This document shows positions 10,198 to 15,795 of a DNA stretch of 64,000 bases, in pieces. Both the position numbers and the translations under genes were made by a program. The stretch lies in assembly GCA_024372495.1 (NCBI GenBank), contig CP099977.1:1302001-1366000 (forward strand), in the 5' to 3' direction. This DNA comes from Pseudarthrobacter sp. Fe7 (GTDB lineage Bacteria > Actinomycetota > Actinomycetes > Actinomycetales > Micrococcaceae). The notes under the pieces are model-generated. The model saw only the letters and a program-made list of their open reading frames with translations. It did not search any database and had not been told where the DNA came from. Each line of letters begins with the position of its first letter. The first letter of the stretch is position 1.

Positions 10198-10245
10198 AAA
10201 AAGAGCCAGGCAAGACCGCCATCCGCGGTCTTGCCTGGCTTTTTT
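10198..10245. terminator. Bidirectional intrinsic terminator between purC and the peptide-receptor gene
   Basis: A perfect 15-bp stem (10204-10218 with 10226-10240) and a 7-base loop, followed by T6 on the + strand and preceded by A5, which reads as T5 on the - strand. It ends purDC from one side and the XRE-TPR gene (stop at 10248) from the other. Confidence 0.93.
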
Positions 10246-10247
10246 GG

Positions 10248-11514
10248 TCAGCTGGCCTTGGCGGCTGCCGCAGCGCGTTTTTGCGCCAGTCTAATTTCCA
10301 GGATCGCGTCCAGGGCCTGCTGGACCCGGTCCTGGGCGCCTGCAGCCGCGAAGGCCTTCTGCGCCTCCTCGAGGTGGACCATCGCTTCGTCGAGTTCTCC
10401 AGAGGCCTTGAGTGACTTGCCCAAGAGGAGGGAAACCTCTCCCGCTGTGTGCTTCGCTAGTTCCGTGCGCTCGGAATGGATTTCACGGAGTTTTTCGACG
10501 GCGGCGACGATGTCCCCGGTAAGGTACAGCCACCGGGCACGGATGAAGGCGACCTCCAGCTGATCCGATTTGTTTCCGCCTACGATCGACAAGGCCAATT
10601 CAGCCCGCTCAATCGCCGACAAGGTCTCCGGCTCGACGATTCCCGAGGAAAGTCGGACGGCAGCAGACGCCTTGTTGAACCGAGCCCAGAGCCCGATGTC
10701 ATTCGCCGGGGAGAGCAAACGGGCAGGCTCGCTCGTGGTGCTTGACGCCCTCCGCGTAGTCGTGCCGCATGAACGCCACATTGCCCACGACCCACGCCAC
10801 CTCGCCGGCGAGTTGGGACATCGAGAGCTCGTCGACGTGGTCGATCATTGCCTGGCAGTACTTCCAGGCCTCGTCCAGCCGTCCGCTTTCGGCGAGGGCG
10901 CCGATCAGCGCATGGTGGGCATTGATGATTAGGGTGGATCCCTTGGGGAGCTGGTTGGAGAGGTCCACAGCCTGAATCCCTTGATCGACAGCTAGGCTAA
11001 GCTGACCCTGACCCTGGTAGATACCAGCCAGCATCTGATGAGCCCGGACAGCAAGGCCAGCCGATTCTCTGGCCATGGGGTGCTCCAGCAGGTGCTCCAT
11101 GATTTTCTGCGCGTCCCGCCAGTTTCCCTGCTTAATGAGGCACTCGGCCTGCATGTATGTCATGTTCCACCACGCGCTGGTGTTCCGGCCCTCAAGGGCG
11201 ATCTTGGCGGCCGTGGCAGCGTGGCTTGCGGCCAAGGGATAGTCGCGCAGATCCCAAGCCTGGCGTGCATAGAGCCCTGCCAGTACGTACTCAGCATCAC
11301 TGATGGAAATTGGCTGGCTCCAAGCCTCCAGTGCCTTGGGCGCCAGCTCAAGCCTGCGTGCCAATTCCTCGATAACTTCCGCGGTCGGTTCCCTGCGGCC
11401 GGTCTCGAGCAGCGAAATGTAGCTGGGTGAGTACAGGTCCTTGCCCAGTTCGGCCTGCGTCAGTCCACGCTCAAGGCGCTCCGCGCGGAGCTTTTCTCCG
11501 AACCCGTTGCCCAC
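10248..11514 (-). CDS. XRE helix-turn-helix / TPR regulator, candidate peptide-pheromone receptor (RRNPP-like)
   Basis: Cytosolic DNA-binding regulator, 421 residues after correction. The start is the GTG at 11514, 7-8 bases after a strong AGAAGGAGG ribosome site. Residues about 4-58 form an XRE/Cro HTH (FGEKLRAERLERGLTQAELG, then SPSYISLLETGRREPT). The rest is all-helical, with about eight TPR-like helix pairs (for example AGLYARQAWDLRDYPLAASH, AGIYQGQGQLSLAVDQGIQA, GALAESGRLDEAWKYCQAM and LGKSLKASGELDEAMVHLEE). HTH plus C-terminal TPR is the architecture of PlcR, NprR, PrgX and AimR receptors, which bind short re-imported peptides. An extra base at AGGCT 10725-10729 makes it look truncated after 265 residues; correction joins the halves (HERA-ARLLSPANDIG). 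Divergent, 128 bases away, is a secreted repeat peptide that is the likely ligand precursor. An XRE-TPR regulator sensing something else is possible. Confidence 0.85.
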
Positions 11515-11551
11515 GCGTTTCCTCCTTCTGGACACTTGGGCCACCGAATGC

Positions 11552-11591
11552 TTGACAGCCCCTGTGGAAAATATTTTACAATGTGTGTCAA
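11552..11591. promoter_or_regulatory. Promoter/operator region of the divergent peptide and regulator genes
   Basis: On the + strand TTGACA (11552-11557) and TACAAT (11577-11582), 19 bases apart, form a probable promoter for the peptide gene, leaving a leader of about 50 bases. AAAATATTTT at 11568-11577 is a perfect 10-bp palindrome lying between the two boxes. TTGACA is repeated inverted as TGTCAA at 11586-11591, and the two arms share nearly the same centre as the palindrome. This is a natural binding site for the divergent XRE-TPR protein. The motifs are seen; the binding protein is inferred. Confidence 0.5.
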
Positions 11592-11642
11592 CAAGGACAG
11601 TGCTGGCTTTGTAACGAATCCGACTCGTATTGAGGAACTTAT

Positions 11643-11870
11643 ATGTTGAAGAAGATCGCAACCGCGGCCGCCCTGGCTGGGGCCCTGGCTTTTTCCGCGG
11701 CGGCTCCGGCCGTCCTGGCTTCAGGTTCCGTCGCCGATAATTCGGGAACGTCGGTAGCTGTGGGCAACTGGCCTGACCCTGCCTCCGCGAAGGTAAAGAA
11801 GGACAAGAAGACCACTACCACCAACACCACCGTCATTACCTACGTCGGCAACTGGCCCGACCCCGCATAA
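11643..11870 (+). CDS. Secreted peptide precursor with duplicated VGNWPDPA, candidate pheromone of the adjacent XRE-TPR regulator
   Basis: A 75-residue protein, ATG at 11643 after TGAGGAA. Residues 1-26 form a Sec signal peptide: positive MLKK, an Ala-rich core, then PAVLA with cleavage predicted before SGS. The exported part is about 49 residues. VGNWPDPA occurs at residues 40-47 (11760-11783) and again at 68-75 (11844-11867), where it is the exact C-terminus. The copies are separated by a Lys- and Thr-rich linker (KVKKDKK, TTTTNTT). The encoding DNA differs at four codons (Val, both Pro, Ala), all synonymous, so the peptide is conserved while the DNA is not. C-terminal mature peptides in an exported precursor next to an HTH-TPR gene are the pattern of PapR/NprX-type signals. 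No cysteines, lipobox or RiPP enzymes are present. The gene is monocistronic. The pheromone role is an inference; the repeat and signal peptide are seen. Confidence 0.85.
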   Translation: MLKKIATAAALAGALAFSAAAPAVLASGSVADNSGTSVAVGNWPDPASAKVKKDKKTTTTNTTVITYVGNWPDPA

Positions 11871-11898: not shown

Positions 11899-11926
11899 CA
11901 GCCCCGGAGCAACAGCTTCGGGGCTG
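11899..11926 (+). terminator. Probable terminator of the peptide gene
   Basis: A 12-bp stem (11899-11910 with 11915-11926, one G-T pair) closed by the loop AACA, starting 28 bases after the peptide stop and followed by TTCCTTT. The T-tract is weak but the position fits a monocistronic transcript. Confidence 0.6.
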
Positions 11927-11965: not shown

Positions 11966-11997
11966 AAAAGAGGGCCTCCGTAAGGAGACCCTCTTTT
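11966..11997 (-). terminator. Terminator of the tRNA-Pro gene
   Basis: A hairpin with one mismatch (11966-11979 with 11984-11997, loop GTAA). On the - strand it is followed by T residues, and it starts 6 bases beyond the tRNA 3' end. Confidence 0.8.
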
Positions 11998-12002
11998 CGT
12001 TA

Positions 12003-12079
<77 letters not shown>

Positions 12080-12163: not shown

Positions 12164-13990
12164 CTAGACCAGGGAATCCTTCCACGCACCGTGCAGGTCG
12201 GCGAAGCGTCCGCCGCCGCCGATCAGTTGGTCAGGGGTGCCGTCCTCCACGATCTGTCCGTCGTGGACCACCAGGACCCGGTCCGCCGTCTCAACCGTGG
12301 AAAGCCGGTGCGCAATGATCAGCGCAGTCCTCCGCGCCGCTTCCGTTCCAGCAAGCAGACGGGCCAGGCCGGCCTGCACCAGGCGTTCGGACGGGATGTC
12401 CAGGGAGGAGGTGGCCTCATCCAGGATGAGCACGGCAGGGCGGGCCAGGAAAGCCCTGGCAAAGCTGATCAGCTGGCGCTGGCCGGAGGAGACCCTGCCG
12501 CCGCGCTTGTTGACGTCGGTGTCGTAGCCTTCGGGAAGTTCCATGATGAAATGGTGCGCCCCCACGGCTTTGGCGGCTTCTTCGATTTCCTCACGTGAGG
12601 CTTCCGGCCGCCCCAGTGCGATGTTGTCTGCCACCGAGCCACTGAACAGGAAGGCTTCCTGGGTGACCATGACGATGTTCCGGCGGAGGTCGGAGGTGGC
12701 CAGGTCCCGGAGATCCACACCATCCAGGGTGAGGGTGCCGGAGGTGACGTCATAGAACCGGGCAATGAGTTTGGCCAGCGTTGACTTGCCGGCACCTGTC
12801 TGGCCCACCAGCGCCACGGTCTGTCCGGCCGGGATGTGCAGGTCCAGGCGGGGCACTACCAGGGGGCCGTCGCCGTAACGGAACTCGACCCTGTTGAAGT
12901 CGATGCGTCCCGTGGCCGCGGGCAGGGCCATCGGGCTCTTCGGCGGCCGGACCGTCGGCACCTCTTCAAGGAGCCCGGAGACCTTCTCCAGCGCTGCCTG
13001 TGCGCTCTGGAACGAGTTGTAGAACATGGCCATCTGGTCCACAGGCTGGAAGAACCGCTTGGTGGACAGTATGAGGGCCAGGAGCACCCCCACGGCAAGG
13101 CTGCCGTTCAACACCCGGAAGCCACCGACCAGCAGGACCACTGCCACGCAGGCATTGCCGATCAGTACCAGCCCCGGCTGGAAGATGCCATTGAGGTTGA
13201 TGGAGCGGACGGTGACCAGCCGGTAGTCTTCGGCCAGTTTCCCGTATATCCGGGAGTTTTCCTTCTCCTTGCGGAAGGCCTTGACGGCGCGGATGCCGGT
13301 CATGGTCTCCACAAAATGCACAATCAGGCGCGCGGAGACCACCCGGGACTCTCGGAAGGCAATCTGCGAGTGCTTCTGGTACCAGCGGGCCAGGAAGAAC
13401 ATGGGCACGCCGGCAGTCAGGACCAGCAGGCCGCTGCGCCAGTCCAAGGCAAAGATGGTGGCGGCGGTGAACGCCATGAAAAGCATCCCGGAGGCCAGCG
13501 AGCTGACGCCGGAATCGAGGAGTTCGCGCAACGCCTCCAGGTCCGACGTCTGGCGGGCAATGATCCGGCCGGACGTGTACTTTTCGTGGAATTCCAGGCT
13601 GAGCCGCTGGGTGTGCCGGAAGACCCGGACGCGAAGGTCCAGCAGCATGGCCTGGCTGAGCCGCGCAGTGGAGGTCACGTAGAGGGCGGTGAGTCCCGCC
13701 GTCGCAATGGCTGCCAGCAGGTAGGCGACGCCGGTGAACACCAGCGGGAAGTTATCACCTGAACGGAGGGCCGGGAGGGCATGGTCGATGCCGAAGGCGA
13801 TCAGTGCGGGGCCGGCCACGCGCGCAGCCTGGGAGAGGACCACCATGGCGATGGTCAGCCAGAACCGCACCCGCACCGGACGTATCAGCGACCCCAGCAA
13901 GGCGAGCGACCGCCGTCGTACTGCCCTGCTGTCACTCTTGCTGAGGTGGGCGTTGTCTTCGTTGGCGGTGCCGAACGTTGCGGTGCTCAT
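12164..13990 (-). CDS. ABC exporter half-transporter with canonical ATPase site
   Basis: Type IV ABC exporter subunit of 608 residues: six transmembrane helices, then a nucleotide-binding domain. Walker [10 protein letters not shown] lies near residue 398, signature VSSGQRQL, Walker [12 protein letters not shown] with the catalytic Glu, and H-loop AHRLST. Its start (13990) overlaps the stop of the upstream partner by 4 bases, so the two are translationally coupled. This subunit carries the intact catalytic site of the heterodimer. Drug or lipid export is usual for the family; cargo is unknown. Confidence 0.9.
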
Positions 13991-15795
13991 CGGGTCACTT
14001 CCTCGGCCTGGTCCTCAAGCGCAGACAATTCGGAGTCCAGGTCCCGCGGCTCCCGGTCCAGGCTGGCAATGACATAGCGGTAGTGCTGGTTGTGGGCCAG
14101 CAGTTCCGTGTGTGTTCCGACCGCGGCAATGCTCCCGTCCTCCAGCAGCGCCACCCGGTCGGCGAGGGCCACGGTGGACGGCCGGTGGGCGACGATCAGG
14201 GTGGTGGTGTCCTTGAGCACCTCGCGGAGGCGCGCTTCCACCAGTTCCTCGGTGTGGACGTCCAGGGCGGACAGCGGATCATCCAGCACCAGGACGCGCG
14301 GGCGGGCGGCGATGGCGCGTGCCAGGGCGATCCGCTGGCGCTGGCCGCCGGACAGGCTCAGGCCTTCCTCGCCGATCAGGGTGTTCACCCCCTGGGGCAG
14401 TGAGTACGCGAAGTGGGCCTGCGCCACGTCGAGGGCCTCATCCAGGACCTCCTCGGAGCGGAGCGGGGCACCGAGCAGGACGTTGTCCCGCACTGAATTG
14501 GAAAACAGGGTGGTGTCCTCGAATGCCACCCCCACGGTCCTGCGCAGTTCCTCGACGTCGAAGTCCCGGATATCGACACCGTCGATGCTGATTGCACCGC
14601 TGGTGACGTCGTACAGGCGTGGCACCAGCTGGATCAGTGCGCTTTTGCCGCTGCCCGTGATGCCTACCAGGGCCATGGTTTCGCCGGGCCGCACCTCAAG
14701 GTTGATGTCCTTGAGGATCGGTTTGTCCGGGGCGTCCTCAAAGGCGAACGTTGCGGTGTCGAAGCGCAGCGCGCCCGCGAGTTCGACCGGGCGGCGGGGC
14801 TCGGCGGGGCTGGTGATGGTGTTCTGCGTATCCATCACCTCGTAGTGGCGGTCGACGGCGGTCTTGGCCGTGAGTGCCATGGCCAGCAGCATGCCGGAAA
14901 ATTCCACGGGCGAGGCGATGACGGCGGCCGTTGCGAAGAACGCCACCAGGGAGCCGATGCTCAGCTGGCCGCTGGCGCACAGCATGACACCCACAACCAG
15001 CCCGGCCCCCAGCGCCAGCTCCGGAAGCAGGGTGACCACCATGGTGAAGGTGGCCTGGTGGCGTGCCTTCTCGATTTCGGTCTGGCGCAGTTCCTCGGCT
15101 TGTTCGTTGAAATTCTCCAGGGCTTCCCGGCTGCGGCCAAACGCCTTGAGCACGCGGATGCCGTGGACCGATTCCTCCACCGTGGTGGCGAGGTCGCCCG
15201 CCTGGTCCTGGCTGCGCCGGGCCACCTTGCTGAACCGGGTGCGGAACCGGAAGCTATTGATGGTGATGGGAACGGCGGCGGCGAGGAAGATCAGCGCCAA
15301 CTGCCAGCTCATGGCGAACATGGCCACGATCCCGATGATCACGGTAAGGGTGGTGACCACCAGCATGATGGCGCCGAATGCCATCCACCGGCGGAGGAAG
15401 TTCAGGTCCGTCATGGCCCTGGAGAGCAGCTGGCCGGAACCCCAGCGGTCGTGGAAGGAGACGGTCAGTTCCTGGAGGTGGTCGTAGAGCGATACCCGCA
15501 TCCTGGTTTCCACCGTAGTGGCGGGGTTGATGACGAACTGGCGGCGGAGCGCCACCAGGCCGGCCTCGGCGATGCCCAGCACCAGGATGACGGCGGCGGA
15601 AATCCATACTCCGTCCGTGGTGGCCCCCGGCTGAAGCGCAGTGTTGACCAGGACGCGCAGCACTTGGGGGATGGTCAGGGCCACGATGCTTGCCGCCAGC
15701 GCACAAAGAAGCCCCAGCAAAAGTCTGGGGATAATCGGCCGGACGTGCGGATAAAGACGGCTGATGGATCGGAAAAAGGGAGTCTGCTTGGCCAT
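13987..15795 (-). CDS. ABC exporter half-transporter with degenerate ATPase site
   Basis: A 602-residue partner of the following gene with the same membrane-plus-ATPase layout. Walker A is GITGSGKSA near residue 380 and the signature is LSGGQRQR. Walker B reads [11 protein letters not shown], with Asp where the catalytic Glu normally stands, and the switch region is AHRPST. This is the asymmetry seen in heterodimeric exporters such as TM287/288, where one composite site hydrolyses ATP poorly. First gene of the two-gene operon. Confidence 0.9.

Follow-up and report, generated by a model that had tools for sequence, protein, structure and literature searches.

Does any member of the Actinomycetota speak through short secreted peptides that are read inside the cell by a dedicated receptor? 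The RRNPP systems that work in this way are treated as Firmicutes systems (PMC10075063, PMC9765709), and actinobacterial signals are described as typically enzyme-made small molecules (PMC10075063, PMC9765709, PMC4748050), at least in the available portions of these sources. The question is raised by a pair of genes in a 64,000-nucleotide stretch of the genome of Pseudarthrobacter sp. Fe7 (contig CP099977.1, positions 1,302,001 to 1,366,000; hereafter the window). One gene (10248..11514, minus strand) encodes a regulator with an XRE-type helix-turn-helix (HTH) domain and tetratricopeptide repeats (TPR); the other (11643..11870, plus strand) encodes a 75-residue precursor containing a repeated peptide. 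An initial annotation of the window had interpreted the two as a pheromone system. Comparison with related genomes supports that interpretation and suggests a reach much wider than the annotation assumed, and the best reading of the pair is as part of an RRNPP-like peptide-receptor family of Actinomycetota.

A conserved head-to-head gene pair with a repeated peptide

The start codons of regulator and precursor lie 128 bases apart, with the genes head-to-head, as the initial annotation had it. Its account of the precursor, a frame listed among the open reading frames (ORFs) and backed by homologues, is also borne out. The precursor begins with a predicted Sec-type signal region (approximately residues 1-27; 11643..11723, plus strand), in which a basic KK start is followed by a hydrophobic run and an alanine-rich end; the export signal here was judged by a simple hydropathy rule rather than by a trained predictor. 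The sequence VGNWPDPA then occurs twice on the plus strand, internally at residues 40-47 (11760..11783) and at residues 68-75 (11844..11867), directly before the stop codon, with four silent differences between the two copies.

The pair is strictly conserved in the genus. All 121 of its genomes (121 of 121) gave both a regulator match and a peptide match, and in every one the two matches share a contig and lie head-to-head, 123-146 bases apart. Named relatives of the regulator (80 of 210) come from Arthrobacter, Pseudarthrobacter and Paenarthrobacter. Among 144 distinct Micrococcaceae receptors that possess the HTH domain (HTH+), 142 have beside them a divergently oriented, signal-bearing precursor with a Trp-Pro (W-P) motif; five of the 144 came solely from loci located by peptide search, and without these the count is 137 of 139. 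The neighbouring peptide that had been predicted for homologues of the regulator is thus present throughout the genus and nearly throughout this wider set. Nor, among the confident matches, were peptides encountered without the regulator, the converse observation that the initial annotation had named as damaging: the 17 family peptide matches at E <= 1e-3 all fall in receptor-bearing genomes. At E <= 0.01 there are 24 family genomes with a match, these 17 included, and the weaker ones, such as that in genome G224, are of low similarity; 40 of the family rows without a locus were fetched and some others left out.

Repetition of the peptide is the rule. The number of G.WP copies in the 142 precursors is none in one, one in six, two in 77, three in 27, four in 25, five in two, six in two and eight in two, so that 135 contain at least two, and in 126 the last W-P lies no more than four residues from the end of the precursor. 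The core is constant, while the spacers between copies differ in both length and sequence. For the 123 precursors having at least two xGNWPDPx copies, 294 within-precursor copy pairs were compared codon by codon, giving 1591 identical codons, 725 silent differences and 36 that change the amino acid; were the window's codons changed singly and at random, about 24% of the changes would be expected to be silent. The tandem copies are, on this codon evidence, under purifying selection. A repeat arising by chance was set aside on the same test. The residue following GNWPDP is the same in the first and last copy of 115 of the 123 precursors (permutation mean 82, maximum 92), and the residue preceding the G in 122 of them (permutation mean 57.6, maximum 74). 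From the excess of silent codons and this agreement between first and last copies, it is likely that the copies are old, maintained by selection on the peptide itself, and change together within a precursor. Drifted forms of the motif occur in other genera, for instance VGNWPDA, PGNWPD, VWIWPD, VGIWPN and VGDWPH. Among 120 listed of the 313 peptide homologues, those that bear a source's name are labelled hypothetical, uncharacterized or low-complexity protein, apart from occasional oddities, phage tail protein among them.

An HTH-less sister branch and more distant relatives

A second group of TPR proteins, paralogues of about 340-360 residues, lacks the HTH domain altogether. They align from approximately the first TPR onward, and the one scanned against Pfam shows TPR-type families only. 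In a tree of 72 rows, 24 HTH+ and 22 HTH-less rows form opposite clades, with one change each and support of 99/92; the starts of the HTH-less genes were estimated, and seven receptor frames that thereby came out too short were excluded from the tree. A divergent secreted-type peptide is present at all 29 HTH-less loci of a first set, containing WWP in 26 (for example IGWWPN twice, or APGWWPD five times), and a W-P peptide was found at ten of 12 further HTH-less loci in other genera of the family. The total is 38 of 40, L201 and L382 being the same locus and counted once; 20 of the loci were drawn from second-copy matches listed in the genus search.

Between the two branches the form of the peptide changes. 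WWP occurs in 28 of 38 HTH-less peptides as against none of the 142 HTH+ precursors, and GNWPDP in 130 of those 142 as against none of the 38. Across the loci compared, the peptide form follows the receptor branch, which is the covariation of peptide and receptor that the initial annotation had held would favour its proposal. Because the two kinds of pair differ in this way, a single genome can, to judge from these sequences, carry two receptors, each with its own form of peptide. Profile searches of the Fe7 genome itself found no HTH-less copy. Downstream of the HTH-less gene, a GGDEF motif (scored as a pattern match in any frame) occurs at 22 of 29 loci (L200-L201, L205-L210, L214 and L257-L276), and the two HTH-less operons scanned by Pfam have a gene for a GGDEF/EAL protein on one side and a GAF-HisKA-HATPase gene on the other.

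Relatives were also sought beyond the Micrococcaceae. At E <= 1e-40 the HTH+ receptor profile matched 13 of 248 genomes in the order, 12 of which belong to the family itself, and at E <= 1e-15 it matched four of 396 genomes in the phylum, where at most four candidates per genome were scored and absence is therefore weak evidence; a broader profile at 1e-12 found a match in 35 of 296 genomes, with at most six candidates scored and the same caution as to absence. A small, divergently oriented ORF that bears a signal and has W-P close to its end is present at 12 of 29 distant loci (11 of 27 when two loci already in the profile are set aside), with ends such as SAGWPKH, TANWPKH, GAPWPHCC and GYPWPK. 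In 11 of these 12 the ORF has just 28-40 residues, a signal peptide followed by a few residues past the hydrophobic stretch. The corresponding controls gave a W-P peptide beside two of 239 ordinary genes and none of 26 other XRE genes (30 loci minus three that proved to be receptors and one too short, with the gene start taken as the domain start), and in a Fisher test of 11/27 against 2/265 the value of p is about 3e-11. Three of the distant loci L229-L250 have F-P in place of W-P (L233, L242 and L243) and were scored as misses; at L244 the upstream ORF, which ends in SIEWP, is on the same strand and lies outside the divergent-only count. In one further family (f17), three of seven matches have a W-P peptide, including VGGSWPT in three and in two copies.

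Six homologues, of 26.5-28.7% identity, were found on Streptomyces and Kitasatospora plasmids. Three of these loci were opened: in two (L224 and L225), a precursor with IGWPVAP or IGWPAA repeats lies convergent to the receptor gene, and at the third (L226) no W-P precursor was seen. L224 lies near two SARP regulators, and L225 near LuxR-type and PqqD-family genes. Phage records and viral contigs yielded no relative of the receptor, and a phage or viral origin was set aside on the strength of those negative searches.

The intergenic dyad, the regulator gene and their surroundings

The region between the two start codons contains a conserved inverted pair, TTGACANNCNNTGTNNAAA (11552..11591, arms at 11552-11570 on the plus strand and 11573-11591 on the minus strand), which is likely to be an operator lying over divergent promoters. 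Alignment of 107 intergenic sequences from the genus shows a shared CTTGACAGTCCCTGTGGAAAACATTTTACAATGTATGTCAACA, an imperfect dyad of TTGACANNCNNTGTNNAAA, and recognisable forms of the dyad are kept in genera whose receptors are 46-73% identical. When six genomes were searched with the strict half-site, allowing at most one mismatch, both arms occurred together at the pair's own locus only, and a single arm elsewhere just once in each of two genomes; the backward pattern, as a control, gave 0-2 matches per genome, and for the window two matches came up in none of 100 shuffles. The regulator would, on this evidence, bind at the dyad. Also within this region is TTGACA-17-TTTACA, facing the peptide gene; since a consensus promoter scan lists no promoter at 11552..11591, it is put forward here as a putative promoter.

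The regulator gene runs on the minus strand from a GTG start codon at 11514, preceded by AAGGAGG, to a stop codon at 10248. Its ribosome-binding site, AAGGAGGA (11520..11527, minus strand), was read from the sequence. Pfam finds HTH_31 (E 6.7e-12) together with TPRs, which bears out the initial annotation as to domain content, and the HTH domain occupies residues 5-64 (11323..11502, minus strand) when placed via a relative, L005. All 19 receptors of alignment A1 likewise contain HTH_31. What the initial annotation overlooked is that the frame of the gene is broken at about 10727. The two closest relatives examined have single open frames of 421 and 422 codons, and comparison with them reveals one surplus base in the window at that point. 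The assembly has a completeness rating of 78.87%, and several neighbouring ORFs, as well as matches to the oligopeptide-binding protein family SBP_bac_5, appear split in the same manner; for these reasons an assembly or sequencing error is the likelier explanation of the break. That the regulator is a pseudogene was set aside in view of the low completeness and of the open frames in those two relatives. Between 4690 and 10191 of the window, asparaginase-like, purD-like and purC-like genes (identified by eye) are broken across frames, pointing to an indel-rich assembly.

The initial annotation had described the pair as closed off by a bidirectional terminator on one side and by a hairpin and a tRNA on the other. 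A 21-nucleotide inverted repeat, terminator-like for the regulator, is present at 10199..10245, between the end of the regulator gene and a gene read by eye as SAICAR synthase; the terminator scan lists it in the regulator's direction only, and 'bidirectional' was a judgement by eye. On the other side there is a hairpin 3' of the peptide gene (11899..11926, plus strand), a second hairpin with a T run (11966..11997, plus strand) and a tRNA-Pro (CGG) gene (12003..12079, minus strand). Hairpin and tRNA are thus as described, and it is by eye that the hairpins count as terminators, the scan listing neither. In other genera, too, tRNA-like sequence is present beyond the 3' end of the peptide gene (L073, L080 and L084 are examples), and in the window the tRNA-Pro gene is followed, at 12164-15795, by two genes that by eye appear to encode ABC exporter half-transporters.

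The pheromone reading, its alternatives and known systems

We put at roughly three in four the probability that the pair encodes a peptide pheromone together with a receptor for it in the cytoplasm. The precursor would be exported through its signal region and cut into VGNWPDPA-like peptides, and these would be taken back into the cell, there to be bound by the TPR portion of the adjacent HTH regulator; this would change the regulator's grip on the shared operator and so set expression of its own gene pair. SBP_bac_5 matches are present in the Fe7 genome, with nothing that ties them to the peptide. In the HTH-less branch, the signal is instead probably relayed through protein contact to the neighbouring GGDEF/EAL enzyme, and so to cyclic-di-GMP.

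Several observations weigh against this reading. The fold is a common one: in comparisons with an AlphaFold model of relative L005 (pLDDT, the predicted local distance difference test, 89.7), APPBP2 (27.3), MalT (26.5) and subunits of the APC score equal to or above the RRNPP proteins Rap (23.8), NprR (22.1) and AimR (20.9), and the Pfam family RNPP_C gives 12.5 bits, below its cut-off of 26.5. Homologues of the regulator lacking a peptide neighbour, which the initial annotation had named as a danger to its proposal, are hardly seen in the genus and Micrococcaceae set; of the 28 HTH+ relatives in the family that diverge further (35-52% identity; among L345-L375 and L379), some of them second copies and some the sole copy of their genome, just four have a candidate peptide upstream. 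The candidates at L348 and L364 are clearly tandem, that at L367 consists of a single weak copy, and the one at L375 seems spurious. Nothing convincing was found downstream of 20 of the divergent relatives, and the matches at L389, L397 and L399 look like chance frames. A peptide is also missing at the genus g24 receptors L087 and L088, at L202, L211 and L212, at four of the seven matches in family f17, and, as a divergent W-P ORF, at 17 of the 29 distant loci. The HTH-less peptides of other genera are not uniformly of the WWP form, two of them reading GNWP. The strict dyad search of six genomes reveals no further target, and the frame of the regulator in the window is itself broken. RRNPPA proteins without a propeptide have been proposed to sense the peptides of other cells (in the available part of PMC9765709), and the peptide-less divergent HTH+ relatives may by analogy be receptors of that kind, or may have some other role.

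It is unlikely, in our estimation, that the regulator merely controls a secreted effector peptide (antimicrobial, surface-active or protease-targeting) while its TPR domain reads another ligand or a protein. The confinement of the paired dyad to its own locus in six genomes would suit such an arrangement, as would the many related HTH+ regulators with no peptide gene nearby; against it, the form of the peptide tracks the receptor branch even within one genome holding both, and the HTH-less branch retains a W-P peptide of its own even though it has no domain with which to act on DNA. No immunity-like gene common to the loci was noticed, though no systematic neighbourhood survey was made.

Two further proposals seem to us very improbable. 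In one, the peptide is sensed by a different receptor, such as a two-component kinase, or inside the producer before export, and the TPR regulator responds indirectly. The kinase gene adjoining the TPR gene in the two HTH-less operons examined speaks for this; yet the module common to both branches is the TPR protein and the peptide, and the ORFs at 5-18 kb of the window, which lay outside the Pfam scan, include no kinase gene that could be recognised by eye. The other, to which we give the least credence, holds that the precursor is an enzymatically modified ribosomal peptide (RiPP) whose repeats are the core peptides of a natural product. Tandem cores with spacers do resemble multi-core RiPP precursors, a PqqD-family gene lies close to one Kitasatospora plasmid homologue, and the precursor has a weak, sub-threshold NCBIfam match to a RiPP family (E 0.12). 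However, inspection by eye of the ORFs at 5-18 kb of the window revealed no gene for a modifying enzyme, what the two HTH-less operons examined hold is a histidine kinase and GGDEF/EAL, and nearly all the distant W-P forms are signal peptides with no more than a short tail.

With somewhat less assurance than for the pair itself, we favour the broader view that the Actinomycetota own a large superfamily of pheromones with a Trp-Pro core, in one to eight copies per precursor, each with a TPR receptor. Its HTH branch would act on DNA and its HTH-less branch on cyclic-di-GMP via the GGDEF/EAL neighbour, and it would be present not only in the Micrococcaceae but also in further actinobacterial families and on plasmids of Streptomyces and its relative Kitasatospora, one of these copies lying beside SARP-type regulators. 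If the pheromone reading is correct, a conserved peptide-receptor family would provide this phylum with a peptide language open to testing with synthetic peptides roughly eight residues long, and the HTH-less branch would link peptide sensing to cyclic-di-GMP. A GNWPDP pair and a GWWPN pair in the same genome amount to a ready-made experiment on specificity.

Among the matches listed in a search of the open-access literature, subscription papers and preprints being outside its scope, no actinobacterial pair of RRNPP type was found, and a search with the peptide motif gave unrelated matches only. A review of quorum sensing in the same phylum (PMC4748050) lists Arthrobacter with LuxR-type domains and, in the portion available, describes no peptide-receptor pair. 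The HTH and TPR architecture of the transcription-factor members of RRNPPA is present in the regulator, both by Pfam and in the L005 model, and so, throughout the genus and the Micrococcaceae set, is a neighbouring gene for a small precursor with a putative export signal, as is typical of RRNPPA. Arbitrium (AimR-AimP) differs in being a phage system (PMC9765709, available part), whereas the receptor described here has no phage or viral relatives that we could find. There is a close likeness in layout to PlcR-PapR and NprR-NprX of Bacillota, in which an HTH and TPR receptor is encoded beside a small precursor with an export signal that yields a short C-terminal peptide (as set out in the available part of PMC9765709). 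Structures of PlcR/PapR and NprR are among the fold matches of the relative's model, and profile similarity to PlcR was found in the HTH part only; these systems belong to another phylum, and the present one differs further in its W-P core and in having tandem copies as a rule. Tandem pheromone copies as such are already known in Firmicutes systems (PMC11343458, PMC9765709, in the parts available). In Rap-Phr with duplicated propeptides, as described in the accessible portion of PMC11343458, a TPR receptor is likewise served by several pheromone copies per propeptide, and Rap resembles the HTH-less actinobacterial branch in that neither has an HTH domain. The difference is that Rap has a three-helix bundle for its protein contacts (PMC9765709, available part), whereas the HTH-less actinobacterial proteins appear to begin at their TPRs and mostly lie beside a GGDEF gene.
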